This document shows, piece by piece, positions 2,087 through 57,809 of a stretch of DNA of 64,000 nt. Under the pieces are notes generated by a model that ran no database searches, had not been told where the DNA came from, and worked only from the letters and a program-made list of their open reading frames with translations. Source of the DNA: Grammothele lineata (taxonomy: Eukaryota; Basidiomycota; Agaricomycetes; Polyporales; Polyporaceae); the NCBI GenBank assembly GCA_002150815.3, contig NDFF03000041.1:1-64000 (forward strand), given 5' to 3'. Every line of letters begins with the position of its first letter. Within the stretch, counting starts at the first letter, position 1. The position numbers and the translations under genes were made by a program.

Positions 2087-3688
2087 GTGCGTATTTGTGA
2101 CAGGCATTCTTCCCCTCGCCGTCCTGATGTCCTATTCAGCCGCCACGTCTTCCTACCACGTATATCCTTGACTAGTCACATTGCATTGCCCTCTTCTGGT
2201 ACGTCACTCGGCGTCGTTGGCGTGTCTACTGGCTGATCCCGAACGAACGTTTCCAGCGTCATTCAATCATTCTGCTCTGTGTTCTATACCGTGTATCTCT
2301 AGTAATTTCATTGTATCTTGGTGCGTTTTCCGTCGGATACCCCCTTATACCGCACGCCGTGTTGCGCGTCGAAGGTGAGTGCCACTACGTCGCCTTCGCG
2401 CTGCAAGCGTCTTCCTTCTTCTCGCCTAACACGCTCTCGGATGTTCTCCTCCCTTACCCTTACCTTCCCGCGTCCCCTGCTAGGCGTGGTTATGTTGCGC
2501 GCGGAGCTGCCATTCGCGTCCATAGTGGAGGGTAAGGACAGGGACGATGATGACACACCCGCCCATTCTCGCGCTCACGTAGCTGTGCACCTGAACAGTG
2601 ACGGTACGCTGTGCGCGCGAACTTAGATATTGCGTGCGCTAAGTACTCGGTAACTCGATTGCCTCATCGTCTCCTCCAAGCCTTTGGTCGTCGCTTGCCG
2701 GGCCGGTGCTCATCCTACCTCTGACGAACATCCTTGCGCTTCCCCGGCTTCGCGCCGCGATGCCGCGTGTGCAAGACTTTGGTGAGTACGGAGACTTCTC
2801 TTTAGGGAGAACCAACTCTGATTTTCCTATAGGGGTATCCCTGGACGGGTTCGGATATGAAGTGAATTTGCTGGCGGTGCGTGATGGTGTAGTGTTGTCA
2901 GTGTGCTGGAGCTCATGCGGCGTGCGAGTGGACAGGTGGTATTTTCCGCGATGTCTATCATGACGAAGATCATGACAGAAAAGTGGAACTCAAATCGGTC
3001 GTCTATGCACTTCGATGACTAGCTGCTTCCCGCGGGCCTGAGAAAGCACCTTTCTAGCACGTGCTCAATCCCAGAGCCACGCTCTCTCCTCCAGACCTAG
3101 GACGCTTTTCCTTTCGACAGTAACACAACACGGGTCCGCCATATTTCATGTCAAGATGCCGAGGAGAACCACCCATCCATTTCCCGCATTTCCTGCCTCC
3201 GTCAATGCCTGGACCTTACAAAGCACACCGCGGGCATTTCCAGCGCCCGGGACACTCTAACCCCGCGAATCCCCAGCGGCCTGCGCCGCGCCGCGCCTCG
3301 CCCTCCCACCTCTCCTTCACCTACGGACGTCTTTTCTTCCTAAATGAACCGCGCTCTCGCGCCCATTCATGCACGGCATTCGACCCCCGGAGAACTTGGC
3401 CCGACCTAGGCACGTTCTGTGACGCACGGGAGGGGTTCAACGTTCCGGGCTCGTGCGTGCGCCGCTCGGACCTTCCCCGCGAAGCGTCGGCGGTCGACGC
3501 CTGGCCTGTGAGCACCGTCATTCTGGAGCCTTCGCTTTGAATGCTTGCATGAGTCGGTGCTTGGACCGGGTGTCGGCTTTCTGCATATATATACATATAA
3601 GGCAGCAGAGTGGATCTCTCGACCTCGCTCGTATACTCGTCCACACGCACCCGCCCCCAGCCACCTCAATCCACACTCGAGGCTTCAG
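2087..3688. other. Intergenic, no gene supported
   Basis: This contains the possible A1 terminal exon (from 2176) and the promoter of the secreted-protein gene at 3689. Open frames here overlap on several strands and frames, lack splice-consistent extensions and show no recognisable domain. Confidence 0.4.
3586..3593 (+). promoter_or_regulatory. TATA element of N1
   Basis: TATATATA lies about 96 bp upstream of the N1 ATG. N2 has a similar element at a similar distance. Confidence 0.45.
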
Positions 3689-27483: not shown

Positions 27484-29053
27484 TTACATCCAACGCAGGG
27501 TATCTGCCAAGCGGTTCACACGTACCGACTCGATGTATTGCGTGGCCTTACGACGGATACATTCCACAGCTGTAGACGCGTAAGCACTTCGTCCCCGGTC
27601 GAATAATATCGCCAACTTGAATGCCACGTACGTTCGAGATTACGCGGGTACCGCATCTGGACATACTGCGCGTTCTTGAGGTCCTCGTCGTACTCTCGCA
27701 CCCCGCGTGGGATCCAGTAATCCGCGTAGGCCCGGGCCTCAGCGTCGAGAGACAAGTCCGGCTCTGGCGCCCCAGGCTTGACGAACGCAATCCTGCATGG
27801 AAGGATCCACCCCTTCCCTCTGGGTTTTTGCCCCTTAGGCGGCGCCCTTCGCGAAGCGGCAACCTCGATCAGATTCGGGGCATCGATGTCCCGGAGTTCC
27901 GCAAAGTGCTTTTCTGCAACGGCTGCGGGGCTGCCGTACATGAACACGGACCACGGGGGCCAGTCGTAGCCTCTCCAAACCAGGGTGGTCAGCGCTGACG
28001 CAGGGGTGATGAGGTAGCCTGCGACGTAGATGTCGACCTCGAGCTGGTGTAGTTGGATTGTGCGGGTGGTGGTGACCGTGAAAGGTACGCGAAATACACG
28101 GTGGCCAGCTTGAGTGGCTAGAGGAGGCACGCAGGGCGCAGCAGCTGGGGACGAGGCGGGAGCTACCGGGGGGACGGTCGTAGCGGGAGCGGCTGCAGTG
28201 CTACCGTGTTGCCGTAGAGAATGGGGATTAAGAACATCGAGTTGCTCTACAGGGGTGGCCTGCGTTTGGTGTTCGGAAAGGGCTGATGCAACAGGATTGT
28301 CGATGGTGGGCAATTGGGGGGTCTTCTCCTGGATCTCCCCAGAGGGTGAGGGTGACGGTCTCTTTTGTTCGGCCTTTCCAGTCGTGCCCGACGCTGGTCC
28401 TTCTTTACCCTCGGGAGCGTGAGACTTGGCGATCTCAACTTTTACATTCTGAGGACGGAGAGCAGTATGAGCATCGCTCGCCTCAATACAAGCACGTATA
28501 AGAACCTGACCTGGGCCGGTAGCAACACGTCTCCCTGTACTTCCGTATGAGACCTCGACGCATTGGCGTCTCCAGCAGTGCTGCAAGGAAAGGATGTAGT
28601 TAGAAGGCGCAATACAGTCGATATACAGGGTGGAACGCTGGTCTAAGTGCTTACTTCTGCTGAGAAGAGGGTGGTCAGAGTATGTATAGCACATTATCAG
28701 CGAAGAGGCATACCGTAGGTCTTTCACCGTTTGTCTCGGACGCTGCGGGCCCTCCATTCGCATCTGTCCTGCCAAGTGCCCCTTCTAGGACAGAAGGGCT
28801 AAAGAGAGACCTCGTTCAACAGCAGAACACGGAGTATCCGAAACGACAAATCCTCACAGGGGAGCTTGAGCCTTGTTATGTAGATGTTTTCTCCTCTTGG
28901 GACCACCACCTTGAGCTCGGCGCTCTTGAGGGTACTCAGAGACGTCAACGGACCTGTCGACGTCATGGATTAGCGTTGACAAGCAGATCGACTCGAATGA
29001 GCTTACAACGCGATGCCGTTATCCCGAGCGCGTTTTCTTGTAGTGACGGGCAT
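27484..29053 (-). CDS. Family A member A11, most diverged intact copy, 401 residues
   Basis: Exons 29053-29007 (47 nt, MPVTTRKRARDNG), 28953-28858 (PKRRKHLHN), 28798-28714, micro-exon CAGAA 28659-28655, 28580-28511, 28448-27632 and 27569-27484; the total is a multiple of three. The third exon has lost the DPLxEL motif but keeps length class and phases. The large exon carries a Pro/Ala-rich linker, VDIYVAGYL, IDAPNLIEV, WILPCRIAFV and YADYWIPRGVRE, i.e. substitutions at positions otherwise constant (GF to GY, SP to AP, WFPR to WIPR). The last exon (ECIRRKATQYIES) ends earlier than in sister genes. TGACCACC precedes the micro-exon here rather than following it. Function unknown; basic N-terminus suggests nuclear. 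Confidence 0.7.
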
Positions 29054-32385: not shown

Positions 32386-32387
32386 TA

Positions 32388-32656
32388 CTGTCGCGATCAG
32401 ACCATAGCGGCGCGTCACGCGTCACAGGACCCGCCGCCGCGCCGCTATCCGCCTTTTGTCACCGGTCACAGGGGCCCCCCGCCGGACGTGACCGGCAGCC
32501 GTGGGCTCGTTTTGGGCGCTTTTAGTACCCAAAATGGAAAATTTCCGCCGCCTACGGCGGCGGCGTCACACCTCTGGGGCCTCCCCGCCGCCCCACCGGT
32601 TCAACGGGGACGTGTCACACCCTCGACCCCCCGCCGCTATGGTCTGATCGCGACAG
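32388..32656. mobile_element. MITE with perfect 25-bp terminal inverted repeats and TA target site
   Basis: The left end CTGTCGCGATCAGACCATAG.. (32388-32412) is the exact reverse complement of the right end (32632-32656). Both ends are bordered by TA (32386-32387 and 32657-32658), the target duplication made by Tc1/mariner-type transposases. The 269-bp element is strongly GC-rich in AT-richer surroundings and has internal palindromes, e.g. CCGCCGCCTACGGCGGCGG near 32549-32567. It encodes nothing, so it would need a transposase in trans. Perfect ends suggest recent insertion. Confidence 0.85.
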
Positions 32657-32909: not shown

Positions 32910-34978
32910 ATGGATACACGCAGTCGAAATCGTGGGCGGAATGCTCCGGGTCACCTTGCGTGAGTTTGTCTCTAGCCTCGCGCAGAAGCCTCGGTGGCTG
33001 AAGAGCCGTGCACTGATGGCTACGTCCTTGACCACTCACGACAGGCCTCCAAAGGAAGCGTTCTTAGGATCTCTACAGCCGCTGCAAGTGTATAACTGTG
33101 TATCTGATTACCTCATTCTCTGACGCTCATTAACAGCCCCGATCTCCATGAACAGCCGCTTGGGCATCCACTGAGTGAGCTCGAAAGTATGGAGCGGGTA
33201 TTGGGACGGTACTTGGCACTTATGGTGGGTAATTATCAATGTTTTATATGAGAACACTACTGAGAAACGTTGGTGTAGCGCGAGTGAGTTTTGTTTTTAA
33301 GGGTCGAGCACCCTAGCGAGGCTACAAGTATCTTGACCACCTCTGTTGACCACCTCGATATGGAAGAGCCAATGTCCGCCATCAGGCTGTATCGACAATC
33401 AAGTCTGTGCTAGACAGGCTTAGTGCGTACAAGGAACGAGCTGTTGGAGAGGTGGTGGGTAGAAACTACGACAGTTCTTCTCCCTCCAATAACTAACATC
33501 TTCATAACTTTCAAGAACGCACTTGAATCAGCCGTGGCAGAGCTAAGAAGAGTTGAATTGGACCTCGAAAAGGAGAGAGAAAGACGTACCAAGGCAGAGG
33601 AAGCACTGAACGCTGCTCTCTCGCATCAACCTAACAGAGCGAATCCCGTGCCTTCATTCGTGTGGGAGAAGCTGTTATGCTTGGACGATCCCCGTTACGA
33701 GACTTCCGTGGATGCCGCCATCATCTGCCTGCTCTCGTCGTACTTCTCGACGGCGGGAACATTCAGCGTGGTGTCACAATACAGGCTCTGTGAGGAAGTT
33801 AAGCTCACCGACGATCAAATCCGGACGTACATGGAGCTCCTTGTCGATAGATGGAAAGAGAGAGCTAATAAGGAGCCATTCCTCGCAAGTAGTACCCCGC
33901 CGCCTCCCAAAATCCCTTCCACTATCCCCAGTCCGGCGGAGTCATCTGCGAAGCCAACCACCCCAGTTTCCGCAAAAGCTGGTCCCGAGGGGGATGTCCC
34001 GAGGGACAGTACTTCTGATGAAGGGAGCCCACATCAACTGGACCAACACGACTCCATCAGCGGGGTGTTAAATAATATGCGCTTCCCTTCGCCCACGACA
34101 TCTACCAGACAGCCATCCTTTGCAATCCACCCGAAGGATTTCGAGACAGATAGTCTCATAGAATCGCAGCGTCCAGCTTGTGGTGATCGGCGCTCCGAAG
34201 GGTTCAAGGCCAACGATGGAATACCGAGTACGCATGAATCGGACGCTCTCGACGAAGAAGAAGCCCTCCCAGAGGATTGCCAGGAGACTGATGTACACAT
34301 CGGCTCAGAAGGGTAAGCGGTTTCTCCTTGGAAAAAGTTACAAGATCGGTTGCTAACTCTCTGTCGTCTACTAGCGGCGAGCTCAACGTAGAACCAGATC
34401 GAGTCGACTCAGTGGACGTCCCCGGGTCTGCTAGATCTGATATTGATGACCTTTCTTGCCGTGCCTCAGCGGGTGGAGCCCAGTCCAATATCCAAATGTC
34501 TAGTGAATGCCGCCCAGAAGATCCTGGTAACTGTTCTATCGACTCTTTCGGGCGCTTTGTTCCGAGTAGAAAGAGAGGTGGTTTTGCGAAGACCGGAATT
34601 CCTGATCTCATGGTGATCCGGGCTGGCATCAACGGCGAACCAGACAACGTACTCATCATTGTTGAGAACAAGCTGAAGAAGAATCCATTCAACCAATTGT
34701 GTGGGTATATACAGCTCTTTCCCAAATCCCTCGATATCATCGGACTTGGATGTCGCTTGGTTAATGGCAAGGGTCCAGGGGTTGAATTCATGATCGTTCG
34801 GCGAGATAGAGATCGTGATGAACACCCCCTTGTGATCGTTCGCCCCAAAAACAACCCAAAAGCTGCGTTCCACCCTTCCAATTCCGCCTACCTCCATAGC
34901 ATTCTACGCGATCTTGCCCGACGGGAATGGAGAGAGGCCCAGTATCCCAACATCGAGACTATTTTGGTAGAGGCTTGA
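32910..34978 (+). CDS. Family B member B1: micro-exon cassette plus PD-(D/E)XK nuclease-like domain
   Basis: Secure exons: 33137-33224 (HPLSELE, 88 nt as in B2), micro-exon CGCGA 33279-33283 (identical to B2), 33367-33451, 33516-34312 and 34375-34978. The basic start MDTRSRNRGRN at 32910 is the likely first exon, but the second exon could not be joined in phase, so the 5' end is unsure. The large exons hold a short coiled coil (LRRVELDLEKERERRTKAEE), a block shared with B2 (FVWEKL, PRYETSVDA, LLSSYF, SQYRL), a disordered Ser/Pro linker, and a C-terminal domain: GIPDLMVIR .. LIIVENK .. QLCGYIQ. PD, E-x-K and the following Q are the signature of PD-(D/E)XK nucleases. Probable DNA/RNA-cleaving effector domain; substrate unknown. 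Confidence 0.75.
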
Positions 34979-36242
34979 CGTATATTTCTCATAGGTCCTG
35001 CAGGTTGTCCGTACAGATCATCCTAATGGATGATCCCCCGGTATTTCTAACTATTCCTGCACCTTCGACACCATGTACTGTATGCATGGCGTATCAATAT
35101 GCCCCTATGTTTTATGTACCTCTATGCCGGTAGTATCCGCCCGTGTACTCTACTCATCGTCATTCATTGCTCGACGGCCGTGTGCCATGCTTGACATTTG
35201 GTACTTACACCCACGGTGGTCTGTGTACTATGTCTAGTTTGGAGAGTGATAGAGATCCTCCGTGATAGTCATTCTCGAATCAGCATAGATGTCAGGGAAT
35301 GTGTCCCTTGTTGTGCCTTGCACTGTATTTTCCATGTTCTTAAAGTGTCGCTTCTTGAACGGCGAAGACGGCTTTCGCAAATCAAATTATGAGATTCTAA
35401 GCTGGTGCTTGTTCTGGAAGACGAGAAATCAGTGCTATATTCACTCTGAGGGCCATGTTACACAGGATGAGTGTGTGTGCCGGAAAACGTCACACTTTTG
35501 CACTTCAGTTATTGCCCTCTTGACCGAGACTCCAAACCGCCATGATTTAAAGGGTCGGGAACATTTAACAGTTAAACAATGCGCGCACAATGTTCCCGCG
35601 CGTGTGCAAGGAGCAGTGTCGTCGCCAAGACGAGAGACTGGACGCAGCGACTTCAGCAGGTACAGTATTTGCTAAGGGCATCCGTGGGAGTACGCGTAGC
35701 GATATCGCACACGGCAGGAGTTGCACCAGCGTGTGCCCTGAGACCGGCGACTGCCAGCGTCCTCGTGAGTTGGCAGTGCTCAACATAAGTGCGGCGATGC
35801 ATGCAAAAGACGAGGGTGGAGATGGCGCGGGTACTCGCCATCTTTTTCGTACTCCCTATCTCTTCCTATTCGTGGGCTTCTAATCATCTGCGTCCATCTG
35901 GAGGTTCGGACGCGGAAGCTAGACACTCAGGGGCGGCGCGCCCAGAGTAGTAGCGAAGATAGAGGCTAACGAAACTCCAGGAGAGCTTACATGGGACAAC
36001 TTGTGAGATACTCTACTGTCGTCGTGCCTCACAGCGATGTATGCGCATCCACCTCGTCGGGGAAGCGAGCGCGGTCTGCGCCAGTCTGGAGGGTGTCGGA
36101 GCTAAGTAGCCAACACGTCTCACTAGCGGCATCTAGCAACGGGCTGAAAGCAATATACATGATATGAGGTACATTGTAGGGATACATGGTGGCTGGTCGA
36201 GATATTAGTACGGGTACAACAGCGCGCGTCATCGGCACGTAC
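34979..36242. other. Intergenic, no gene supported
   Basis: B1 3' flank and spacer before pseudogene A3. Small overlapping frames only. Confidence 0.4.
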
Positions 36243-37676
36243 CAACGTGTCCGTCTTCATCTGCTTCGCGTAAACACGAGCAAGTTCCTCGCGATACAGG
36301 CGTAAGTGCTTGTGATTCTCGTACATCTTGGGTCCAACGCATCCGGTCGCTAGACAAGAAATGTGTCTGGGTGTAAGCGAACAGTTCAAATGGGATCTGC
36401 ACAAACATACGCACTATACTTGACACGCGGGAAATAGCAATGCACAGACTTGGCGTATCAGAAAGGCGGCGACTCGTTAAGAAGACGAGGTAACCGATAA
36501 TCGGCGCACAATCGCGCAAAGGAAGATTAAGTCGCGGACTGCCGCGATTGACGATCCCGAGTCTACAGCAAGGAACGCAGACTATTCGATCGACGTCCGG
36601 CTGATGCTTGCGGCGAACGCTCATGGCGCACGCTCATCTAAAGGAAATTGGGACTGTCGAGGGGATATGGCTCTAGATCGAAATACATATCGGCGAGAAC
36701 GATTGGCCCAGTGTTGTTGACTGCATTCTGGGTGTAGTCACAGGCCTTCTATGCAAAGGCATGCAATCATCTCTGAGAAGACGAAGCCATGGGCATGGGT
36801 GTAGATAGAGACAAAGACGTCCGGACGAGGAGCAGGTGAGGCGGGTGGTGCGGTCGTGGATGCAGAACGCTGACCCGAAGACAGTCGAGAAGTGGAAGAC
36901 ACGGTGCGCGAAGAGACCTTCGCAGAAGATTTGAGGACATGTTGAGGCTTTACGAAGCATATCGGCGACAGTGATGCGATCGCCTGGCCTGGACAGTAGC
37001 GCGTCAGGCATGTGTCGGCCCTTGTGGACGTCTTGACGTGAATGCCATGAGTACTAAGCGACATCCAATCCATGAAACATGCTACTCACAAACTCGAGGA
37101 GCGCTTGTATCTGCTTCAACCTCTCGTTCACAATGTCAGTCACCTTAGAAGTGTCACCAGGTTTGTAACTGACTCAACGGTTATGTGAATCGTCCGAGCT
37201 CATAAGTGGTCAGAAGACTTACGTTTCCTATTCAAGACGTTAGACTTCACAATCGCGCCATGAGTACGAGGGAAACGCACCATGATCATTCCGAAGCGGC
37301 TGAATATTAATGCTGCGTACGCCGTCTCCAGTTCTTGCAAAGGGTCCACCTAAGGGGAGCCTTTGCGGTTACCGATTCGGAATGGTGTAAGTCAACGACG
37401 GTCCGTCGCGAGTAGGTTGATGAAGTACTTACGGTGGCTTTCCTAGTTCTATGCCAATCTTTGTTCTGTCTGGAGCAAGAATCTCGGGCATGAAAGGTGG
37501 TCGAGGGCGAGGTAATGGTCGCAGCGCGTGGGGCGGCAACAATGGAGTATTGCTCGAAAGATTTTCTGCTTGCCGTGTTGTGTCGCTCTACAGGGGCGTA
37601 GATCGCATATGTTGGGGGATGATCCATGGGCATGGATGGTACGGCAAGGGTACTTACTTGTAGTGAAGGCACGCAT
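36243..37676 (-). pseudogene. A3: decayed family A gene
   Basis: The order of family exons is kept: a start region near 37676, an exon ending WHRTRKAT, 37349-37281 (VDPLQELE), micro-exon GAAAC 37227-37223, an exon VNERLKQIQALLE, a large exon with PRPDVFVSIY and HGFVFSEMIACLC, and 36349-36243 (TGCVGPKMYEN). The large exon is broken: the frame shifts after CLCIEG (about 36745), a stop follows the PLDSPNF block, and further shifts separate HQPDVDR from the WFPR region, which is unrecognisable. The micro-exon and its splice sites survive, so decay postdates the shared gene structure. Confidence 0.8.
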
Positions 37677-39285
37677 GCTGGGGATCAGCAGAAAAAGAAC
37701 AAGTCATGGCGCTTTTCCCGCCTACTCTTGCAACCCGTTAGAGTCACTCATCCCGGTACAGGGGCAGAGAAATTGACACATGCGCCTCAATCAGTGACGA
37801 AGACAGATTCTAGCATATCTTAAGGGACCTGGAAAGTTGCAAAGAAGTACCGCGTACCGACATTCCAACGCCCAACCTTAGCTCTCCTGGAGTGTCGACA
37901 CAATAACAGACATATCTCCGTCGCGAGAGGAAGCCTGTCATGGACTTCTGAGGTTGATTGGAGGAGCGACGTGATGAGCAACCAAGGGAATGGCTTGATG
38001 TGCTGAAGTTTTGGACGCGATGATGTCGAGTCGGAAGAGATGGCTTGAACCAATTCGGCTTTGTTGACGGATCTCGGACACGATCTTCCCAAGCTTGAAG
38101 GGCTGTCATAAAGTGATAGTATAGGACACAAGGTTACGGGCGCACAAGGGGCCGAAAGGTCCAGAGGAAGATTAGCAGTCTGAGATCGGCGGGTACGCTC
38201 GCGAGTACAAGTTTACAGCCTCTGAGACGAGTTCGTCACGTGAGGTCATCCTTAGCTTGCTCAGGCAGCGGTTGATGCGCTGTCAGGCTGATGACCTGGC
38301 ACTGCTAGGTGATGGCGCGTCCGTGCCTTGAGGCGACAAGCCGCCAATGCATGTGAATGCCATTGCGCTCAGGCGTGGTGGTGTAATGTGGGAGACAAAA
38401 ACCTCACGTCTCGACCAAACGGGCGTTGAGATTTCGGCGAACCGCTGGAGAGGACGAGGAAAAAGTCGCTAGCAATACGTAGCACTTGTCTCTTGAGCGG
38501 CGCTGAGGCGCCCTGGGTTCCGATTCTTTCGAACATGGAGCGGGACTCAAGGCGACCAGAGTTGCGTGTGCGTAAGACTACAGGTTCACATTCTGGGCAT
38601 CTGGTATCCATCCCGATACGTCCTCCCGCTGCCGCTCTTGCTCAAATACACTCTCGGGCACACGAAAAAGGACGGAAATTGCAGACTCCACGAAGGACGC
38701 GCGCCAGACACCGTCGCTTCGCGGACGAACCAAGGCACACTCGCACAGCACTGCATCCATCGCGGTGAGGTGGATGGGGGCAGGCGCCCCATGAACTGCT
38801 TTGAGTTGACCTTGGTCGTGGCGTCGTAAAGGGGGAAGTGTAGTCGCCAGGGTTCGCAGTGAGAAGCGGGTGATGATCTCGGGTAAGGTCCGCTCACTTG
38901 GTCAGACGTTATACCTGTCAGGGAGACACGCAACTCGGCGATCTTAGCCAGCAGCGCTTGAGCGCTGTCACCTGTGCGAGCATTTCGCTGTACTTGCGGC
39001 CGTTGAACGCAACTTGCAGCGAGGGTGGGACTCAGTTTAGACGCTTGCCAGCGAAAGTCACGTGCAGCGAGGCTTTGGGAATGGCCTTCAGTTTAGACGC
39101 CTGCCAGCGAAAGTCACGTGAAACGCGAAATTTCCGGTATAGAACACCGATTCTCTTTAAAGAATCGGAACGTTGGTAGCATCAAGCAATCTAATACTGT
39201 ACAAAGAAATCTAGTAGTCGTACGGAAAAGACTAAATGCACGGGTAACCCAAGAGTATATCCGGATACTGGGTTTTGTCAAGACA
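37677..39285. other. Spacer 3' of A4, partly duplicated 3' of A5
   Basis: Parts resemble the spacer at 41.9-42.4 kb (e.g. a GGGCCGAA..AGATTAGC..CTGAGAT block near 38150 and 41967; and the 39160-39285 flank against 42290-42434), showing that A4 and A5 were duplicated with their 3' flanks. No complete gene is seen. Frames near 37810-38131 might be decayed gag-like sequence, not supportable. Confidence 0.45.
39014..39120. repeat. Two-copy direct repeat, about 58 bp
   Basis: GCAGCGAGG..TCAGTTTAGACGC-[CT]-TGCCAGCGAAAGTCACGTG occurs twice in direct succession (about 39014-39063 and 39064-39120) with a few differences. Confidence 0.6.
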
Positions 39286-41111
39286 TCAGCGGAATGTCAA
39301 ACAACAGGTACTACTGAGGATACATACCACAAACGGACTGAGGCCTGTGCCGATGCTAGTCTAGGAGGTATGTAACCGGCAGGCGAGGTGGCTGCAGGCG
39401 CTGTCAGCGAAAAAGAGGTCTGATGAAAAGAGAGACTTACTGTGGCGACATCCTTCAATTTATTCTCTTCCATCCATTCACGCGCAAGCTTCTCCCGCTT
39501 GATACGCACGCACTCATGATTCTCGACCATCTTGCGACTAATGCAGCCAAAGACTAAACGCGCAGATGTTAGTCAAACGCCGTTCCGATCATCGAGGCGC
39601 GTTAAGACATACCTTCGAGATCGTGTGGATACTCGCGCTGCAGATACTTCACGCCCCTGTACGTAGCCGATTCACGCAGTCGTCGCGGAAACCAGAAATC
39701 TGCGTATGCCTCTGCCTCCTTGTCGAGAGGAAGATTTGGACGCTTCTTGCCGTGCCGCACGATGCCCACCCTGCATGGAAGAAGCCAGCCCTCGCCGTCA
39801 ACGTCAGCGCCGTCAGTTCTGTACCGAACGGGTACCGGAATCAGGTTGGGGCTGTCGATGGGGTACCGTCTTTCGAAATACATAGCCGCGAGATCGAGGG
39901 GCCCAACTTCCTCAAGCTCGACGGTTCGGTAGTTGTAAGCCTCGACGCAGAGGCGTCCGATGGTGTTCTTGGGGAATACAAACCCCGCTACGTAGATATT
40001 GACTTGTACTGCAGGCTGAGCGGGATCTGAGGGTAGACGATGCGCTTTTGGTCCACTAGATTGGGGGTTCGGGTAGTGGTTGCTGGCGAGCTGAGCCAGC
40101 GTGGTTGGCTTGTTGCTCGGTTTCTGTTTCCGGACATCTTCCTCTGCTTCCCGATCGGCATGTTTGGATGGTGGTGCGGAAGACGGTGGACTGTGTACCT
40201 GAGGTGAGGCTTCTTCTGCGCCTGTCTGCTGCGTTTCGGATGTCTCTCGGTTCACCTACTAAAACGTTTTCATACTCGATCAAAGCCTCGAGCCCGGGTC
40301 TGCTCACCTTTTCTGTTGTCATTTGTTCCTTCAATTTCTTCAGCCTCCTGCTCGCAAACGCTAGTAGGATGGTGTGTTCGCCCTGAATGCTGATCGATGA
40401 AGTGGTTAGCCGTTCCACGGATCAGTTCTAGAGTGGTCACTTACTCAATCTGCAGCCAATGTAAGTATACTTATACGAAAATGCGGGGATACGACGTACC
40501 AGAAGCTCTGCGCACTTATCTAGTGCGGTAGAAACCTCTTCCAGCTCCTCCAGTAGGTCTGCAAGTGGACGCTCCTGAATATGAGGGCTAGTGGCAGGGG
40601 ATCTCAATGAAAACGTTACAGCAGGAGAAACAATTGCGCTCACGAGTCACTGCTTGTTTGCATGTCGATCTTCCTTTTCTTCCTAGACCTGGCCTCCTGC
40701 GGTGCGGGGTCGTCTGGACGAGTAGAAAGGAGAGGAGTAGGGGCGAGTGAGGTCGTGGATCGTTGAAGAAGTGCGTCGACTTTTCTTGAGGACGAAGGTG
40801 GCCGAGGTACAGCAGAGGAATGTTCTCGTGTAGCAAATTTGCGGGCCATGTCGTGTTGCTCTACAGGGCAGGCCGACGAAGTGTGTTGAGAGACGGTCGA
40901 TGCGGCGGGATCGTTGTCAACGGGTGGTCCGGCAGCATACACCACGATATCGCGCGAGCGTAGGCCTGGCTGCACCGGGTCCTGCCCAGCCGTTGTTGAA
41001 CTACTCGCGTCATGAGTCAACAGCGGCGAGCAGAGCAACCTATTGGCAACCTAGGCCGGCTTACGGGATAGTGCAATTTTCCCTAGCGCGTTTCCTTGTT
41101 GTGCCGGCCAT
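39286..41111 (-). CDS. Family A member A4, 470 residues
   Basis: Exons 41111-41065 (47 nt, MAGTTRKRARENC), 41003-40644 (long, 120 codons, ending SRKKRKIDMQ), 40587-40500 (RPLADLLEELE), micro-exon ATTGA 40449-40445, 40389-40308 (RRLKKLKEQM), 40255-39613, 39553-39441 and 39360-39286; total 471 codons. The large exon has VNIYVAGFVFPKNTIGRLC, IDSPNLIPVPVRYR, GWLLPCRVGIVRHG and ADFWFPRRLRES. The next exon carries FGCISRKMVEN and KREKLAREWM, and the last is hydrophobic. A4 and A5 share the long GDxLDL/GPLDL variant and flanks, and are sister duplicates. The expanded second exon is unique among the intact copies. Confidence 0.75.
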
Positions 41112-42434
41112 GTTCCTGTAGGTGAATAGAGCGGAAAACGGTTGCGAGTGGGGCGGTGATATCTGTTGTATGAATATGGATGTCCTGGCGCGGAGGCGGT
41201 TCAATTTCAGCGAAATCGAACCTCCAGTACGCCAAAGACCGAACTGATCCGCAGGATACAATGGGCTCACCGTGGAGAATGGATGGAGACTTGACGCATA
41301 TCATATCCTTAAATAGGCGACAATAGATACTGACTAGGTTTGGATGGTCGCTTCAAAGGAAGAAAACATCTCCCAGACATGCTATAATGGCGCGTCTGGG
41401 CAAGGATAGTGCGAAGACTAAGTGGTCAGTAAATCCCGTCTCACTGGGGCAGACCCTTTGACACACATCCTCGCCCTCGAAGGCCGGGCCCATGGATGTT
41501 ATTTCGTCGATTTGCGCGTCAGGAGTTCAGGGCGCGTGTGGGCATTACAGACGTGCAAATGGCCTTATTCACGGCGAAGGGATACAACAAGGGTATACGA
41601 AGCGTGTGTACGCGTATTGGTGACCAAAAGAGAGGACAGGACCTACCACTTCCGCTACATATGACTGACAGCTGCCCCAGTTACTTATCCCCGTACGTGT
41701 GCAGCCACGACGCGTGGCGGCGACTCTGACACACATTAAGAGCACGAATAAGCAGCAGAGAAGTGCTACGCACCAATATCCTAACGTCCAATGCCAACAC
41801 AGCTTCAACCTAGACATGACAATAGAGGTGTCTTGTCTCAGCGTCGCACTGAGGGGATCCCTGGCTTGCGTGCTTGAGGTTCGCGACGCGGATAGACCCC
41901 GGTCATGTTTGCCTTTTAGGTACTGTCGCAAGGCCGCGGCAGGGTGCACGGGTTGACTAGCGTATGACGGGCCGAAGGGATCAGAGCAAGACGTCCAGCA
42001 GCCTGAGATTAGCGGGTGAGCTCGTAAAGTGCTCATAAGCAGACAAAACATGCTCTGGGCCGCCGAGCAAGACATAATGATACTAGGCCTCGGCGTTCAA
42101 CACGTGACTTCTTCTCAGTCAGGCCTTTCGAGCCGTCGCCCCATTATTTGGTGAACGAAGTAATCGACAACGTAAACACCAACGCACCCAGGAGTAGCAG
42201 GTTACGGTGGGACACGTGGCGTTTCAGCGCGAACTCTGGGCAGACTGCTAGAAAGGACGAGGATATGGCCAGCGATGCGTGGCGCTGCAGTACTATTAAA
42301 CAATCTAACGGAACGTACAAACGTGACAAAGGAATCTAGTAGGTACAGATGGAAAGCATGGAACAGGTAACACGAGGGTATTCCCGGGTACTGTCTTTCG
42401 TCCAGACGTCAGCTACGACGTCAAACGTGGCGGT
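41112..42434. other. Spacer 3' of A5, diverged copy of the spacer 3' of A4
   Basis: See the 37677-39285 spacer. No gene is seen. Frames around 41569-42075 lack domain or splice support. Confidence 0.4.
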
Positions 42435-43988
42435 CTAAGACACATACCAGAGACAAAGGAATACGCCGACGTTAATCTAGGAGGTAAGTAGTTGGAAGTC
42501 GAGGCGGCTGCAAGCTTTGTCAACGGAAAGAAGTTTGGATGTGGGGAGGCAAACGCACCGTTGCAATATGCTTCAGGCCATTCTCCACCATCCACTTGCG
42601 CGCGAGCCCCTCCCGCTCGATACGCACGCTTTCCTGAATCTCGAACATCTTGCGACGGATGCAACCAAAAACTGAACGCGTGAATGTGAGTCAAACATCT
42701 GCTCGGTCGAGTCGCCGTCTCAGGACGTACCCTCGAGATCGTGCGGATACTCGCGTTCGAGATACTTCACGCACTTGTATCCGGCCGATTCACGTAATCG
42801 TCGCGGAAACCAAAAGTCCGCGTACGCTTCCGCTGCCTTGTCAAAAGGGAGGCTCGGCCGCTTTCCGCCGTGCCGCACGATGGCTATCCTACATGGAAGA
42901 AGCCACCCTCCTCCTTCTATCTCGCCGCCCTCGGTCCTGTATCGGACGGGTACCGAGATGAAATCGGGGCTGTCGATGGAACGTCGTTCCTGGAAATACA
43001 TGGTAGTGAGGTCGAGAGGTCCGACGTTCTTCACATTCGCGGGAAGGTAGTTGTATGCTTCTACGCATAGGCGTCCGACCGTGTTTCTGGGGAAAACGAA
43101 TCCCGCTACGTAGATGTTGACCCGCACATCCGCTTGAGTCAGGGCTTGGGAAATAGTGGGGGGTAAACGGCGCGATTTGGGACCACTGTACGGGGGAGTT
43201 GGGTAGGACTTCCGAATCATTTGAGTCGACGTGGTTGGTTTGAGGTTCGACTCGGGTCTCTGAGTGTCACCGACATCCTTCTCGGTGTCTCGATCGACAT
43301 GTTCAGACGGCGATGCAGAGGATGTCGGGGTTGGCAGCGAGGGGGAAGCGTCCTTTGTATTGGTTCGCTGTGCTTCCATCATTGCACTATTCGTCTGTCG
43401 AGGACTCTTGAACACCCCGCGAGAGGTTCATACAAAACTGGCTCACCTTCTCAACCACCATATATTCCTTCAACTTCCTCAACCTTGTGCTCGCGAACTC
43501 AAGTAGGGTGGCGTGCTCGCCCTTGACGCTAATTGGTTGTATAATTGGTTGTATACTTAGCTTCTGCGCGCACTAATCCGACAACGGTCACTCACTTATT
43601 CTGTTGCAACATTGCAATGATAAGAGTATGCATATACCACGAACTGGGATACAACGTACCAGAAGATCGGCGCACTTGTCCAGCACGGTGTAGACCATCT
43701 CCAACTCTTCCAACGGGTCTCCAAATGGACGTGTCTGTATATGAGAGCTAGCAAGAAAAAATGTCCATAAGGTTATGGTATAGAAATGCGCGTAGCACGC
43801 TTACAAGTCATCGTTGGTTTGCATGACAGTCCTTCGTCTCTTCCTGGACCGAGTCTCCTGAGGTGTGGTGGTCATGACCGGCTCTGAAGGGCTGAAGTAG
43901 TTATGAGCCTAGGAAGAAACAAGGCTGTTTGGAAGACGTACCCAGCTAGTTCTACATCCCTAGCACGCTTTCTAGTCATTACAGGCAT
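42435..43988 (-). CDS. Family A member A5, 375 residues
   Basis: Exons 43988-43942 (47 nt, MPVMTRKRARDVE), 43891-43805 (SRKRRRTVM), 43747-43660 (GDPLEELE), micro-exon AATAA 43600-43596, 43528-43447, 43394-42731, 42671-42559 and 42476-42435; 1128 nt. The core reads VNIYVAGFVFPRNTVGRLC, LDLTTMYFQERR, IDSPDFISV, GGWLLPCRIAIV, LPFDKAAEAYADFWFPRRLRES and VFGCIRRKMFE. The final 14 codons end in hydrophobic GVFLCLWYVS. Ser/Pro/Thr linker of about 80 residues before the core. Intact by every phase check. Nuclear location is inferred from two basic exons. Confidence 0.8.
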
Positions 43989-44656
43989 GGTGATTGTTGG
44001 GGGACAGTCGAAGATGGTGGCCGTAGTCAAAGTGGGTTCGGATTTCCGGATAGGGCGGATGGGCGCCTCAGCCTTGGTTGTGAATGACCGGACCGGGCTC
44101 CTTGATCGGCGCTCTAGCTGAGTGTAGCACGTGAGCATTTCCAGCGTTCACAATCAGGGAAGCGCCGGAGGAACTCGGTCAACTCGGCGATACGCACTCA
44201 AGTACGTACCCTGCCAGCCGTGTAATTTGCTTCCATTGTAGCCGCAAACATCAAAGGTTGTATGAGTACTTGAGCTCAGTGAATCTACTAGACGGCTCTA
44301 TCCCAAGGCGCTTGTTGTGCTGCCGCCGGCACGCCCTCACTGTTATGCTATTCACACTCGTGCCAATGAGTCCGCCAGCGCTAGGTAATCATCCTTTGTG
44401 AACAATCATGCTACTATCGGATTAGAGGTGATCAATACAACACGGTACGAACAACCATTTGATATGCAGATTTGACGGGGACATGATCATACACAGAGGC
44501 ATAGTACAACATTACAGTAAAATTGGACTCGGAGGAGATAAGTACATAGCGTGAGGAATGGGTGTACTAAACACCGAAAGGAGTACTTGCATCTGTCTCG
44601 TGAGTTGTACGATGAGAGCATCCACCATTGTCGCACTCAGATAACATCTCTTCCTT
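43989..44656. other. Spacer between A5 and B2
   Basis: A5 promoter and B2 3' flank. No gene is seen. Confidence 0.4.
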
Positions 44657-46841
44657 CTACGGTGCCTGAAGAACATCCTCGGTATAAGGATACTGAGCTT
44701 CTCTCCACTCGCGTTGTGCGATGTCGCGTAGTGTGTTGTGGACGTATAAGCTACTAGCCGGCCAATAGGGTTCACCTAAGCCGCGTCCCGGGGGCAGGAT
44801 TGTTACAACCTGATCGTTCTCCTGGGCCCTGTCTCGGTGAGCAAGCATAAACTCAAGACCAGGACCATCGCCGTTAACCGACCGGCACCCTAGGCCTAGG
44901 ACTTCGAGGTTTCCAGAAAAGCCCTCCAAGTACCGGGAAAGTTGGCCAAGTGGATCGTCCTCGACTTTGTCCTCCACCACAATCAATGGTTCGTCCGGTG
45001 CACCATCAATGCCAACCCTGACCACGATGAAATCGGGTATGCCGTGTTTCGCGCGACCCTTCCCTCTTCCGGGAACCACGCGCCCGAAAGAGTCCTCGGA
45101 TTCATCGCCGGAAGGGGCCTGAAAGGTGGATACCTCCAGTAGAGATCCCTTGCTTGCAACCTCACTGGAATGAAACTTGTGAAAGCTGCTGACGTCCAAT
45201 GTGTTATCAGGAACGTCGGAATGTGTGTTTGGATGGGTTATTGGAGCTGGGACGGGCGATGATCCTCCTAGTCCCTCGGGAGACTTCAAGGGAGGAGGGG
45301 AGAGCTTCTCTCTGACCACACGAAGATCGATACCATCCAGCACCTTGTTGCCATTTGACTCAGAATTCCCGTCCGTCGCTCTGGAGCTTTCGTGGGCGTC
45401 GCGAGATTGACCTTCATCCGCACAGGCCTTGTCGTCGTCTTCGTGCCACACAAGGCTGATGTTTGCGTTAAACTCGGGATCAGCGGCGACAGATCTCCCC
45501 GGGATAGGTGTCGAGCAGTTAGGTATGTGGGCATGAGTGGGGATGCGGCTGGGTGTCTGATTGCTCTCGTCGATCCACGCAGGCTCTGGAATATTGGAGG
45601 GAAACTGTCCCGGAGGTGACATAGGCAGTATTTCCGAGTCTTGTGCATCTGTGCTGAGAGAAGACGTATGGCAGTTGTCGGTGTCGGTAAGGAGACGTGG
45701 AGTAGCTGCATGGTTGGGACTGGCATGTTTCTCTCGATCCTTCCAGTGTGCGCATATGTAGTCCCAGTACGTGACAATGTCTTCTTCCTGAACACGCACT
45801 TCGTCTCGGAGACGATATTGGGCCACCACCTTGAACATTCCACGAGGTGGGAAGTACGAAAGAAGAAGAGTGAGTACCACGGCATCGATTGAGCACTCAT
45901 AGCGTGGTTTCTTCATCTTAAACAGTTTCGTCCATACAAACAGCGGTACAAGGGACGTCCTGGCACGCTCATCTTCGGCCTTCTTCTGTTTGTCTTCTTC
46001 TTCGAGACGCTTCTCTTCGTGCTTGCCAAGGTCGACTCGCGCAGAATCCAGCTCCTCCCGAACATTTTGGAGTTCTGCGCGCGCCGAACGGAGGTCCTCC
46101 TCAATTTCCTCGCGCCCGCTCTCTGCTTGAGAAAGAGCGTCGACTGCGGCCGTACGCTCCGCCACCGCTGTCGTCCGTTCTGCCACCGCTTCTTCCAACT
46201 CACCCTAATGTCAAGTCAGTTTTAGGCCAATTAAGATCGCACCTAATTCGGAGATCAGTACGCACACGCTCAATTGATGCCTTCCTCCTTAACTCCTTCA
46301 GCCGATCTCCAACAGACTCTACAATCTCCAAGAAATCCTTCCGAACTCCTCGTATGCTGATATTCGTGCAAATTTGTGGTCAGCGGCTGATTGATTAGAA
46401 GTAACAATTGTTTTCCAGACACTCACTCGCGCTAGACACATCGGTGGTCAGCATTGACATCCGTAAGTACGCGCTGTAAGCTCTGCACTCACCATGAGCC
46501 TGACACTCGACTTCAGAGTATCTTCCATTTCCTTCAACTCCTGTGTTGTTTCCCGCAACGGTCGCTCCGTGGTGGTCGGGCTACGGAACCGCTGTAGTTC
46601 AGGCTCATGTGCTCATCATCGAATTCCAGAGAACTCACAGAGGCTTGATTGATAGGGGTATAGGCTTGCGTGCCTTTCGCGCTGGTTCCCTTTGCGACCC
46701 CGAGGCACTGAAGGTGGTCAGGACCGCGACCACCCGACCAGAATGGCAAGAGGAGCCATCAGCGAGTTTCGAACGAGATGGTAGGTAAATACTCTCTCAC
46801 CCATCTTGATCTGTGTCTCTCTTGCGTTTCTTGGGTGGCAT
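44657..46841 (-). CDS. Family B member B2: micro-exon cassette, coiled coil and PD-(D/E)XK nuclease-like domain, 613 residues
   Basis: Exons 46841-46801 (MPPKKRKRDTDQDG, SV40-type NLS), 46707-46639, 46580-46493 (RPLRETTQELKE), micro-exon CGCGA 46431-46427, 46356-46266 (VRKDFLEIVE..RLKELRRK) and one large exon 46204-44657; 1842 nt. Next come a long coiled coil (AVAERTAAVDALSQAE.. to about residue 180), then FVWTKLFKMKKPRYECSIDA, LLLSYF, VVAQYRLRDEV, and a Ser/Pro/Asp-rich linker. The C-terminal nuclease-like domain has GIPDFIVVR .. PLIVVEDK .. GQLSRYLEGF, then GLGCRSVNGDGPGLEFM and DIAQREWREAQYP. PD, E-x-K and Q are catalytic-core residues of the PD-(D/E)XK superfamily. Lies directly 5' to family A genes that share the cassette. 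Confidence 0.82.
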
Positions 46842-49644: not shown

Positions 49645-51275
49645 CTAATAGTACAAAGAATCCAACATGAAGTCATTGGCAAGGGGGGATTTAAATCTGA
49701 CATTATGACGATGCGGCGGAACGCTGTTAATGTATGAGATCAGAGAGTGCAGAGCATATAACAGAAAGCTCTTACCATGGCACATATACAGAAGATGGAA
49801 CTAGTCAAAGAGGTACAGCGTAGGTAGTGGAGGGGGCTACGGAGATGATATCAGGACACAAGATTGATCACGATGTACTCGGAGAACGCACCATAATTTG
49901 GACATTATTCTGTTTCATCCATTCCCGAGCGAATTGCTCACGTTTGGCAAGCACTGATGGGTAACACTCCCTCATTTTACGAAGAACGCACCCCGTGGCT
50001 GGCATCCACGCGTAAGCCAAGGAACGCAAGGAAAATGAGTAGAAGATTCTTACGATATTCATCGCGGGGATATTCCCACTGGATATACCGCACTTTCCTA
50101 AATGCGCTCGACTCTCGCAGACTGCGAGGGAACCACCGATCGGCATATGCTTCGGCATGCTTGTCGAAAGGAAGGTCGGGCTGCTTTCCACCAGCGCTCA
50201 CGATTGCCAATCTACACGGGAGCAACCAGGCGGCATTTTCATCGTCTGGCTCGGGTTTGTAGCTCCCGGGAATCTTGATGAGGGTCGGACTGTCGATGGC
50301 CCGACATCTTTCGAAGTATAGGCAAGCGGCGTCAATCGATGACAGCCCACGGAGCTCGCTTTGGGGGAGGTGGTAGCCCTCGAGGCAAAGACGGCCGACC
50401 ATGCTCCTTGTGAAGACAAAGCCAGCAACATAAGCGTCAGCAGTTAGCTCGCAATCTCGCGGGACACGGGTGGGAGGGGTAGGTCGATAACTCGGGTTCG
50501 GTGAGGGGTCTGGGACAGGTGAAGGTGATTTCTCAGCAGCTTGTACCGGTAACGCGTCTTGACTTTGAATGACGGACGGGTCGGGTGCTTTCGAGGATGG
50601 TCCGGGAGCGGGAGATGTTGGTGGCTGTTGAGCTGTTGACTGCTGTTCCGTGTACAAATGGATGGGTGTAAGTCATAAGCACCCTTTTGACACGAGAAGT
50701 AACATGTCGCCCACCTGCTCCTGCTCAAGCATAAATGCGTCCCTAACCTCCTTCAGCCGTGAACTCGCAGCTTCAAACACGTCGGAATATCCACCCTCAA
50801 GCCTAGCAGAAAGAAGCACTAAATGACACCGAAGCATGACGTGGGTGGTCAAGGCACTTACTCCCGCTGCGGAAAGAGTCAGACAGCAGAAAACGCAATA
50901 TTTGAGATGGAAAACATACCATAAGATCTGCACAAGCGTGCAAGCCTTCATAGACATTCTGCAGTTCCTTCCATGGGTCTCCAAGGGGTTCGCCGTGGTT
51001 GAACGAGGGGCTACACAAAGGTATGCTGAGTATACGGCCTACTTCGCTAAAGTAGAGAATCACTCACAGAGAGGCTGTAGATTTTACGTTTACCTTCTGC
51101 TTCTTCCTCGAACGAGGGTTTCGCGCTCGGGTGGTTGTGGTGGCTGCTGCCTTGGGCGGCGCGGGGCTGTCACCAGGGTTATCTGGCATAAGCAGACTAA
51201 GAGAGAATGAGATTGCAAATGAGCTTACGCTAGGTTTTCGGCTTCACGAGCGCGCTTCCTCGTTGTCACCGGCAT
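49645..51275 (-). CDS. Family A member A6, about 392 residues
   Basis: Exons 51275-51229 (47 nt, MPVTTRKRAREAE), 51166-51068 (PRSRKKQKVNV), 51010-50920 (GDPWKELQ), micro-exon CGGGA 50866-50862, 50802-50715 (SSRLKEVRDAFMLE), 50639-50054, 49998-49892 and 49800-49645; phases agree. The core is ADAYVAGFVFTRSMVGRLC, CLYFERCRAIDSPTLIKI, AAWLLPCRLAIV, LPFDKHAEAYADRWFPR, LRESSAFRKVRYIQ and TGCVLRKMREC. The terminal exon may itself be spliced after its first 25 nt, since A7 keeps the same GTAAGAG sequence there. A6 and A7, with D1 and D2, form a tandem pair of about 3 kb units. Confidence 0.75.
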
Positions 51276-55260: not shown

Positions 55261-55647
55261 AGGAGTATTGGGGAAGAAGGAATCATTGGATGAGTAGGCC
55301 AGCGTGGAGTCAAGAGCCTGAACCATATACAATCAACTCATCGACAACTCCGTTCGATGGTCGCTCGTTCTAGGGACAACGAGTGATTGAGCAGTGAGAC
55401 AACTAATGGTACAAAAGTCCAACAAAGCAGTATTGACACAAGAGATGGCTGAGATGCTATGATTCTGAGATGCGGCGGAAAGCTGTTTGTATATTAACAG
55501 TCAACAGTCACATTCAAGGGCACAGGGAAACACGCTTACACGACACGTAAGACGAGATAAAACTAGTCGACTAGGTAGACGGTTGGAAGTCGAGGTGGCT
55601 AAATACAACATGAATACGAAGAATATGAGCTAACCCAAGACACGCAC

Positions 55648-57052
55648 CATTATTGCAACATTATTCTGTACCATCCGTCTGCGTGCGGACTGCTCGCGCC
55701 CGACACGAACTTTTTTGGGGTACTCGCTCATCTTCCTGAGAACACAATCGAAGACTGAACGTTCGGACGTGAGTCAAGCGTCTTGCGCGGAAGCATCTGG
55801 TACTGACCATTCTGATCGCTTGGATACTTGCATTGAATATACTGCGTCCTCCTAAATGCTTCCGACTCCCGAAGAAGACGTGGGAACCACTCTTCCGCAT
55901 ACGCCTCTGCGTCCTTATCGAAGGGTCAATCGGGCTGCTTCTGGTCACTGGTGACGGTTGCTACCTTGCATGGAAGGACCTAGGTTACACTGTCGATATC
56001 TGGTTCGTGTTTGTAATGCACTGGAATCGGTATGAGGTTGGGGCTGTCGATAGGCCGACGACCTTCGAAGTGCATGGCAGCGAGGTCGATCGGTCCACAT
56101 TCGTCGAGGTCGCGTTGGGTGAAGTTGTAGGCGTCTAAACAGAGGCGTGCAACTACGCTTCTAGTGAAAACGAACCCAGCGATGTAAACCCGAGCTGGCA
56201 TTCCTATGGGTTTAGGTATGGGATGCATGACAATGTCGTCAACTGCGGGTCGTCCGCTACGCGGATTGCTAGGACACGGCGGGGGAGCGACATTGTGTGG
56301 ACAATTTGACTTGGCGCCGTAGGTCTTGAGACGTTCGAAGAGCGGGCATGTTCGTGGTTCTGAGCGACAGGAGTATCGACCACCTGAGACGATGGAGCTG
56401 AGGAAGGGAGTGCTAGGAGGAGGTGAGCCGCTAGCGAGTTGTCCGTGGGCGACACGTTCTTCCATATAACAAGTTGTCAGTATGTTTACCAGAAGGAGGA
56501 GAGAAACTTACCAGTTTATGCCAGAGCACCCCACGGACCTTTCCTAGACGCAAGCTTGCTGATTCAATTGTGTCCGCGTGTCGCCTCTCCAAAGTGGAGA
56601 AACGGAACGGTCAGAGTTGCGGGTATAATAGTCCGGTGGCCAGAGTACTCACTTACGCTGTCAACGCAATCAGTTGGTGGGAACAGCGAGCATCAACTAT
56701 TGACGTACAAGGTGGTTCGCACAATCCCGCAAGACTTCATAAATGGCCTTGAGCTCCTCCAACGGATCGCCGACGGGCCGATTTCTGAAGCAGCGGCTAG
56801 CGGCACACATTATGGTCTAAGAGACAACGATGGACACAGAATGTGCTCACATATTATCTACAGATTGCATGTTTACCCTCCTCTTCTTCCTGGTTTGAGA
56901 AGCTTGTGTTCTACTCGTTGTGGCTACCGCGGCGAGAGGGTCCTGTGCGGGACTACAATAGTCAACGTGAGATCAGGACCCGGAGAACGTGCTATCTGGG
57001 CTTACGGTGCATTTTCCGCGACCCGAGCGCATTTTCTGGTAATCACTGACAT
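55648..57052 (-). pseudogene. A9: family A gene with nonsense codons in its core motifs
   Basis: Exons 57052-57006 (47 nt, MSVITRKCARVAE), 56952-56851 (TRKKRRVNM), 56784-56709 (GDPLEELK), micro-exon CGTAA 56657-56653, a coiled-coil exon, a large exon and 55754-55648 (FDCVLRKMSEY). The large exon is otherwise well kept (YIAGFVFTRSVVARLC, IDSPNLIPIPVHYK), but the Trp of the W-x-LPC motif is TAG (55980-55982) and the Leu of PDLPFD is TGA (55926-55928). The acceptor after the micro-exon also seems altered (ACTTTGG where sisters have a CTAG), which would break phase. No longer coding for a full product. Confidence 0.82.
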
Positions 57053-57299: not shown

Positions 57300-57809
57300 T
57301 GAGCATGTCTCAGTTTTCTCCTTGAAGCTTGGCCTACTATCCCGAACTGGTGGGATATAGTTTTTAGGACAAGCACGGCGACGTGAAGTGGTCAGGACAC
57401 TCACTTCCGCTGCGAACATGATCAGATGTTTAGACACACGTATAAAGCATGAGTAAAACATACCAGAATTTTACACATTCGCGCAACGTTTCATACACTA
57501 CCTGCAACTCTTTCACCGAATCTCCAAGGGGACGGTTCATCATGCTGGGGTGAGCGGCCCTTATGAGACCTTGGCGTTGCGAGTTCTACAATTTGACGAT
57601 GAATGAAACTCACATTGGCCTCACGCTCCCAGTATCTAACTTCCTCTTCTTTCTAGACTTAGTGTCTCGTGTCCGAGCGGCTGTACTTCTCGCGGCCAAA
57701 GGCCCGAAGCTACAACAACTGTACATTAGCGAAAATCAAACGCAGGTGAAGAAGCTTACAGTGTGCCTTCTGCTTCGCGAGCACGCTTGCGGGTGCCAAT
57801 GACCGCCAT
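57300..57809 (-). pseudogene. A10: 5' fragment of a family A gene
   Basis: Start exon 57809-57760 (50 nt, MAVIGTRKRAREAE), a basic exon (SRKKRKLDT), an exon with RPLGDSVKELQ, and micro-exon CGGAA 57409-57405. A base is missing before the donor of the third exon (VKF where sisters read xxLM), so the phase is lost. Beyond the micro-exon only a coiled-coil-like trace remains, and the gene is cut off near 57250, next to a run of nine A on the plus strand. The GTGAGTGTCCTGACCAC intron start is preserved. Confidence 0.75.

Follow-up and report, generated by a model that had tools for sequence, protein, structure and literature searches.

A five-exon cassette apparently common to two gene families with unrelated cores in Grammothele lineata

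Two linked gene families of the basidiomycete Grammothele lineata, here called A and B, begin with what appears to be the same set of five short exons and then continue into quite different proteins. This arrangement raises the question of whether one 5' cassette has been joined to two unrelated ends and, if so, what products built in this way might do together. The genes lie in the window, the first 64 kb of contig C39 (NDFF03000041.1; 98,859 bp) of a 41.8-Mb assembly in 252 contigs, and all genome-wide counts and comparisons given below refer to this one genome from one strain. The abundance of short introns and the matches to the fungal kinase family PF17667, at least 117 in number, are in keeping with an agaricomycete. 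An earlier note on the same DNA had described a common leader with exchangeable ends and had likened it to polymorphic conflict, effector, or allorecognition systems, with a possible action in the nucleus. That overall picture stood in part: a common cassette, unrelated cores, stretches resembling nuclear localization signals (NLS), and one region with decayed copies were all found, but the exchangeability of the ends was not borne out.

The common cassette and the two cores

Gene models were built with a purpose-written protein-to-genome spliced aligner, in which stops were impossible and introns were allowed in all phases, and were then corrected manually (the correction of exon 2 was applied to A0, A1, B1, and B2). 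The aligner recovered the 5-nucleotide (nt) exon of a second A gene from the protein of the first A gene and was then applied to the A-like places. Ten models were free of stops, comprising seven A genes (A0, A1, A2, A3, A4, and A10 on C39 and one on contig C120) and three B genes (B1, B2, and a third, B3, on contig C54). The models of B1 and B2 matched the earlier description of these genes and were as follows.

32910..34978, + strand: B1, 556 amino acids (aa); exons 32910-32959, 33045-33083, 33137-33224 (88 nt), 33279-33283 (micro-exon CGCGA), 33367-33454, 33516-34312, and 34375-34975 plus stop
44657..46841, - strand: B2, 613 aa; exons 46841-46801, 46707-46639, 46580-46493 (88 nt), 46431-46427 (micro-exon CGCGA), 46356-46266, and 46204-44660 plus stop
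44660..45142, - strand: C-terminal part of B2, with the PD-(D/E)XK-like motif IPD-x19-E-x-K followed by QxxxY
34517..34975, + strand: C-terminal part of B1, with the same PD-(D/E)XK-like motif as B2

The exon structure of the 5' end was common to both families, as had been reported. The cumulative phases after exons 1 to 5 were 2, 2, 0, 2, and 0 in all 10 intact models, and the fourth exon was in each case a micro-exon of 5 nt. Exon 3 measured 82 to 91 nt, with 88 nt in 8 of the 10 models, 82 nt in A3, and 91 nt in A4. The micro-exon was also 5 nt long in each of the six damaged copies that left it readable (A36, A5, A6, A6b, C54:350k, and C212:45k), and its letters were identical in the three B copies (CGCGA in B1 and B2). 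Weak points of the models include the GC-AG donor that has to be assumed after exon 2 of B1 and the first intron of A0, which would be 36 nt long. In A0, A4, and A10, exon 5 has a better donor site farther upstream, by 6, 21, and 9 nt, respectively; because these donors share the same phase, the exon-5 lengths of the three genes are uncertain while the phase is certain. Exon 2 of A1 is 357 nt long (40644-41000) versus 66 to 99 nt in the other intact A genes, and by eye part of it looks like the linker that precedes the core in other A genes, as though recombination had copied it there.

The peptides encoded by the cassette were alike as well. Ungapped comparison of exon-3 peptides from five A copies (A1, A2, A10, the C120 gene, and damaged A5; A0, A3, and A4 need gaps and were left out) with those of the three B genes gave a mean score of 43.2, compared to a permutation mean of -24.3 (standard deviation, 9.2; z = 7.4), and this score was reached by none of 20,000 column permutations. 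For exon 5, with A0 and A3 left out, six A copies against three B copies scored 22.6, the highest of 1000 shuffles being 15.1 (z = 6.7). Alignment of exons 3 to 5 with hhalign, using eight A copies (A0 and A3 included) and three B copies, gave a probability of 96.7% with an E value of 3.5e-10 over 56 columns. The 5-nt exon, at the same place and in the same phase in both families, is evidence independent of these scores. The cores gave hhalign probabilities of 0.3% and 0.2%, which ruled out that they are the same domain and agreed with the previous view of them as unrelated. Judged from sequence comparison, these results support the conclusion that the two families carry a single homologous 5' cassette, joined to cores that are unrelated to each other.

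Genome searches with exon 3 were of limited sensitivity and, within that limit, matched A and B only, with no sign of a further gene family carrying the cassette. The A-type search returned nine rows, all of them A copies, and missed the known A0 and A3; the blended B-type query returned three rows, two B genes and, as a weak third match (E = 0.047), an A gene, and it missed B2. Two kinds of C-terminal end were found, and the cassettes formed separate A and B groups, although weakly (71/54). No B cassette was nested among the A cassettes in the tree; therefore, the A/B joins look old, and ongoing exchange is unsupported.

Two further observations concern the introns around the micro-exon and elsewhere. 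The sequence TGACCACC occurred 14 times in the window versus 2.0 times expected, and 0 of 100 shuffles reached 14; sites lie in A and B introns (for example, 50844-50851, 30781-30788, 54073-54080, and 1058-1065), and at least 2 of the 14 fall inside coding exons. The sequence (Y)TGACCAC stood at a constant distance just past the micro-exon in 8 of 12 A copies examined, was altered or shifted in the other 4, and was placed deeper in the intron in all three B copies; it is a possible splicing signal for the 5-nt exon. The splice pattern of the micro-exon had four extra matches in the genome, and the two that were read appeared chance-like by eye. Being invariant, the micro-exon is well suited to tests of how fungi recognize such exons.

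Domains, copies, and arrangement of the two families

After the cassette, B genes continue into one or two long exons. The string IPD(F/L)...LI(V/I)VE(D/N)K was present in all three B copies, with a Q eight residues past the lysine. The motif pattern was matched by 3 of 2,404 open reading frames (ORFs; at least 60 aa, in the retrieved stretches), all of them B genes; since the pattern was written after the B genes had been seen, this shows rarity and not function. Residues 2 to 83 of the B2 exon-6 ORF were modeled by AlphaFold as one long helix (block means of 74 to 90 in the predicted local distance difference test [pLDDT]), which is probably a coiled coil. The motif suggests that the C terminus of B is likely a PD-(D/E)XK-type nuclease that cuts DNA or RNA.

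Family libraries (Pfam for A and B pieces, PADLOC and PHROGs for B proteins only) gave chance-level matches, in line with the earlier suggestion that the system could be a previously undescribed one. Profile matches of B to the PDB were likewise at chance level, the best being isocitrate dehydrogenase (E = 0.38), followed by HincII (E = 0.9 to 1.2). Weak matches to DpdC (E = 0.017) and cobalt-precorrin hydrolase (E = 0.049), each in one of the three B C-terminal parts, and to HAUS-augmin3 (E = 0.029) and Halogen_Hydrol (E = 0.12) in the helical part of B1 and B3 were not believed.

In A genes, the cassette is followed by a core exon, an exon of 107 or 113 nt, and a last exon of 33 nt, and the proteins end in a conserved tail, PPxLPTxY, some copies of which differ at the first x or at the T. 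The core was modeled by AlphaFold as an alpha/beta domain (pLDDT, 89.9), and the model had no convincing fold match and no recognized nucleic-acid-binding fold. Library scans of A cores stayed at chance level (Salyut, E = 0.015 in 1 of 15 cores, was not believed). The A core is an unnamed, confidently modeled domain found at 20 places in the genome. The A-family features of the window were as follows.

667..2172, + strand: A0, intact, 381 aa
29695..31200, - strand: A3, intact, 370 aa; divergent neighbor of B1
39359..41111, - strand: A1, intact, 456 aa, with enlarged exon 2
39614..40012, - strand: A-core domain, the A1 example used for structure prediction
42475..43988, - strand: A2, intact, 373 aa; 0.67 kb downstream of B2 on the same strand
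49804..51275, - strand: A4, intact, 360 aa
52508..54505, - strand: A5, copy with readable cassette and interrupted core
55566..57052, - strand: A6, damaged copy with readable cassette and stops in the core
57400..57800 (limits approximate), - strand: A6b, coreless cassette fragment with exons 1 to 3 and the micro-exon only
36166..37349, - strand: A36, decayed copy in which exon 3, the 5-nt micro-exon, and parts of the core are recognizable
27500..29053 (3' limit approximate), - strand: A27, divergent A-core gene with a start like exons 1 and 2 but without recognizable exons 3 to 5

The search for A-like places listed 21 rows, 2 of which belonged to one gene, and there were 3 B places. Seven of the 20 A-like places were intact genes with the cassette, and five were damaged copies with cassette exons, namely A5, A6, A36, C54:350k (an in-frame stop in exon 5), and C212:45k (a frame break in exon 3). 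The remainder were one place on C231, whose start is so close to the end of the contig that the presence of a cassette cannot be judged, A27, four cores without a recognizable cassette, and two fragments. The coreless fragment A6b comes in addition to these 20 places.

The dense part of the locus spans 27.5 to 57.8 kb of the window, and no A or B matches were listed on C39 from there to 96.5 kb. At its end, C39 has 506 bases (98354-98859) that are identical to the reverse of the final 506 bases of C54 (356470-356975), and the two contigs most likely join at this overlap; because of it, A10, B3, and the damaged C54:350k are most likely neighbors. Across the overlap, the region from A0 to C54:350k measures about 105 kb. 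Each of the three B genes adjoins an intact A gene: B1 and A3 are divergent, with starts 1.7 kb apart, B2 and A2 are in tandem at 0.67 kb, and B3 and A10 are in tandem at about 1.3 kb across the overlap. A genes also occur on contigs on which no B was found (C120, C231, C212, and C96). Repeat spacings of 2.7 to 3.2 kb at the locus fit tandem duplication.

Ratios of nonsynonymous to synonymous divergence (dN/dS) were Nei-Gojobori estimates between paralogues. They were 0.16 to 0.27 over whole A proteins (five of five pairs) and 0.13 to 0.18 in the core part, with several dS values above 1. Diversifying (positive) selection, signs of which the earlier note had proposed to look for, was not indicated by these ratios, which point to purifying selection instead. 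They argue that A proteins are maintained, with no strong diversifying selection at the depth of paralogues, and say nothing on polymorphism. Lysine- and arginine-rich NLS-like stretches were present in 9 of 10 intact models (seven of seven A and two of three B), and the nuclear setting proposed previously is compatible with them.

A putative nuclease and its nuclease-free relative

We tentatively favor, with less than even confidence, a reading in which B is a nuclear nuclease and A a nuclease-free partner, assembled through the cassette in a conflict or toxin/regulator system. The shared module would comprise basic NLS-like stretches and two helical-looking segments (exons 3 to 5). To this module B would add a long helix, a short conserved region in the middle, a linker that looks disordered, and, at the C terminus, a PD-(D/E)XK-type nuclease, and A would add a linker, the alpha/beta domain, and the conserved short tail. 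Because a nuclease-like family has a basic, helical-looking cassette in common with a nuclease-free family linked to it, A and B may assemble together under the control of A: the module would bring both into mixed oligomers in the nucleus, where B would cut nucleic acid and A would restrain or target B. On this view, the locus would hold a nuclease and its regulator, used in an intracellular conflict, whether defence against mobile DNA, a nonself reaction, or selfish drive. If A and B do act together, a toxin-like nuclease and its nuclease-free relative would have a common assembly module down to exon structure, and nuclease-based killer or defence systems would extend from the SPOK genes of Podospora to a basidiomycete, with a different control principle.

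Several observations weigh against this reading. The AlphaFold model of B2 (four alignment rows) had a mean pLDDT of 42.8, was below 50 in the nuclease part, and was poor outside the long helix; therefore, the case for a nuclease is built on motif, order, and spacing, and the library scans of B, at chance level, left the PD-(D/E)XK fold unconfirmed. B1 is without an NLS-like stretch. The dS values of B were mostly saturated, dN/dS in the nuclease part being 0.29 (dS, 1.4) and 0.11 (dS, 3.6, unreliable), and the cassettes of B2 and B3 gave a dN/dS of 0.80. Adjacency of B and A genes is weak evidence because the region consists largely of A genes and A neighbors are to be expected; B2 and B3 each have a second A-type neighbor. 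Finally, four A cores (C96, C54:282k, C212:38k, and C212:19k) had no cassette recognizable by eye or with the aligner, and at C96 there is little space for one before the upstream gene is reached; the A core would therefore have a role independent of the cassette.

A plain history of two unrelated fusions is a strong rival to the nuclease/regulator reading, if a somewhat doubtful one in its own right. A nuclear-targeting or dimerization cassette would have been joined once to each core and the genes then duplicated, with products that are now unrelated, for example, B in DNA repair and A in regulation. Such a history fits the presence of two ends only, the weak split of A and B cassettes with no recent exchange, and the purifying selection on A, and the A cores without a recognizable cassette would be possible precursors. 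It leaves the arrangement of B beside A unexplained, however, and close linkage with repeated decay of copies is more usual in conflict or redundant families.

Known systems offer partial parallels. SPOK proteins have a coiled coil and a PD-(D/E)XK domain required for killing, are reported to be nuclear, and have DNA as the likely target of the nuclease domain (PMC6660238, PMC9972908). SPOK was compared by description only, and on this basis B resembles, in the order of its parts, the half of SPOK that is responsible for killing, with the kinase missing: an N-terminal coiled coil (in B, a modeled long helix) is followed by another region, by an unstructured linker, and by a PD-(D/E)XK motif (in B, a PD-(D/E)XK-like motif), with a nuclear location that is predicted for B. 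The spacing from D to K is 21 residues in SPOK3 as described and 22 in B, with Q-x3-Y following in both, but the distance from the lysine to the Q is 8 residues in B as opposed to 54 in SPOK3, and B3 has H in place of the Y. Moreover, the N-terminal cassette of B is common to a separate, nuclease-free family. In wtf drivers, toxic and protective products share sequence, and an antidote-only paralogue can protect (PMC6283613); there, one gene yields both products via alternative starts, whereas A and B are modeled as separate genes and share the N terminus only, with unrelated ends. The proposed A/B system would resemble SPOK or wtf in logic and would belong to neither.

Other likenesses were more distant. 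CRN/CR effectors have a common N terminus with different C-terminal domains, one of them restriction-endonuclease-like, and are nuclear (PMC5289972), whereas for A and B only two kinds of end were found and the place of the header is taken by a basic/helical cassette encoded in exons. A Crinkler header had no Pfam match (E up to 1) in whole A4 or the N-terminal parts of B3 and B1, and a P-loop NTPase had none in the A and B pieces scanned. Bacterial polymorphic toxins also combine a constant part with differing C-terminal domains (PMC3482391), whereas at the A/B locus only two kinds of end were found and no stand-alone toxin cassettes were seen. With regard to fungal NLR or HET allorecognition, Pfam scans of A and B exons or models gave no match to a NACHT/NB-ARC, HET, or HeLo-type domain.

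These parallels bear on a second alternative, a selfish killer/antidote system in which B would act as a toxin in the nucleus once meiosis or cell fusion had taken place, and A would be the antidote, protecting by co-assembly with B through the shared cassette. This is unlikely, although the linked B-A pairs, the many nuclease-free A copies, and the decay of copies are consistent with it, as are the suppression of a wtf driver by an antidote-only paralogue through mimicry (PMC6283613) and killing by the SPOK nuclease. Against it, B has no SPOK-type kinase: B proteins end after the nuclease-like part, and no Pfam kinase match was obtained for the B2 ORF or the B C-terminal parts. Pkinase_fungal (PF17667) had at least 117 matches in the genome, with 36 of 143 candidates left unscored, and none of the matches listed was on C39 or C54; a nearby SPOK-type kinase was rejected among these listed matches. 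In addition, A genes stand on contigs without a B gene found, and A is under purifying selection. A bolder version, a two-gene nuclear toxin/antidote system in which the homologous cassette mediates mutual recognition, new specificities arise via its divergence, and the antidote core has an unseen fold, we regard as a long shot.

Less likely again is genome defence, in which B would cut mobile DNA as it invades or replicates in the nucleus, while A would recognize the target or restrain B. The NLS-like stretches, the nuclease-like motif, and the multiple divergent A proteins fit such a role, but the A core has no recognized nucleic-acid-binding fold and the A paralogues show no sign of diversifying selection. 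That A and B are not host genes but the remains of a mobile element is very improbable: copies are dispersed and decayed, some near contig ends, but inverted repeats of at least 40 nt were absent from 28 to 54 kb, the 2.7- to 3.2-kb spacings fit tandem duplication, and intact spliced A genes have low dN/dS.

Repeated blocks and other features

Duplication at the locus extends beyond the A and B genes themselves. A non-A block downstream of A4 and A5 (48641-49296 and 51462-52131) is 73% identical between its two copies and is part of the tandem unit. A flanking block upstream of A3 and A10 (31866-32390 and C39 98270-98789) is 75% identical, which suggests a duplicated unit larger than one gene. 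On C212, a perfect tandem duplication of 759 bases (43099-44615) lies 5' of the damaged A copy and is either very recent or an assembly artefact. No RNA families were found in the window at gathering scores. Apart from the A and B genes, the window holds a tandem pair of paralogues at 16686-17897 and 19134-20400 (MISGVGINNEKLPRLE... and MISGIGINNEKLPRLE...).

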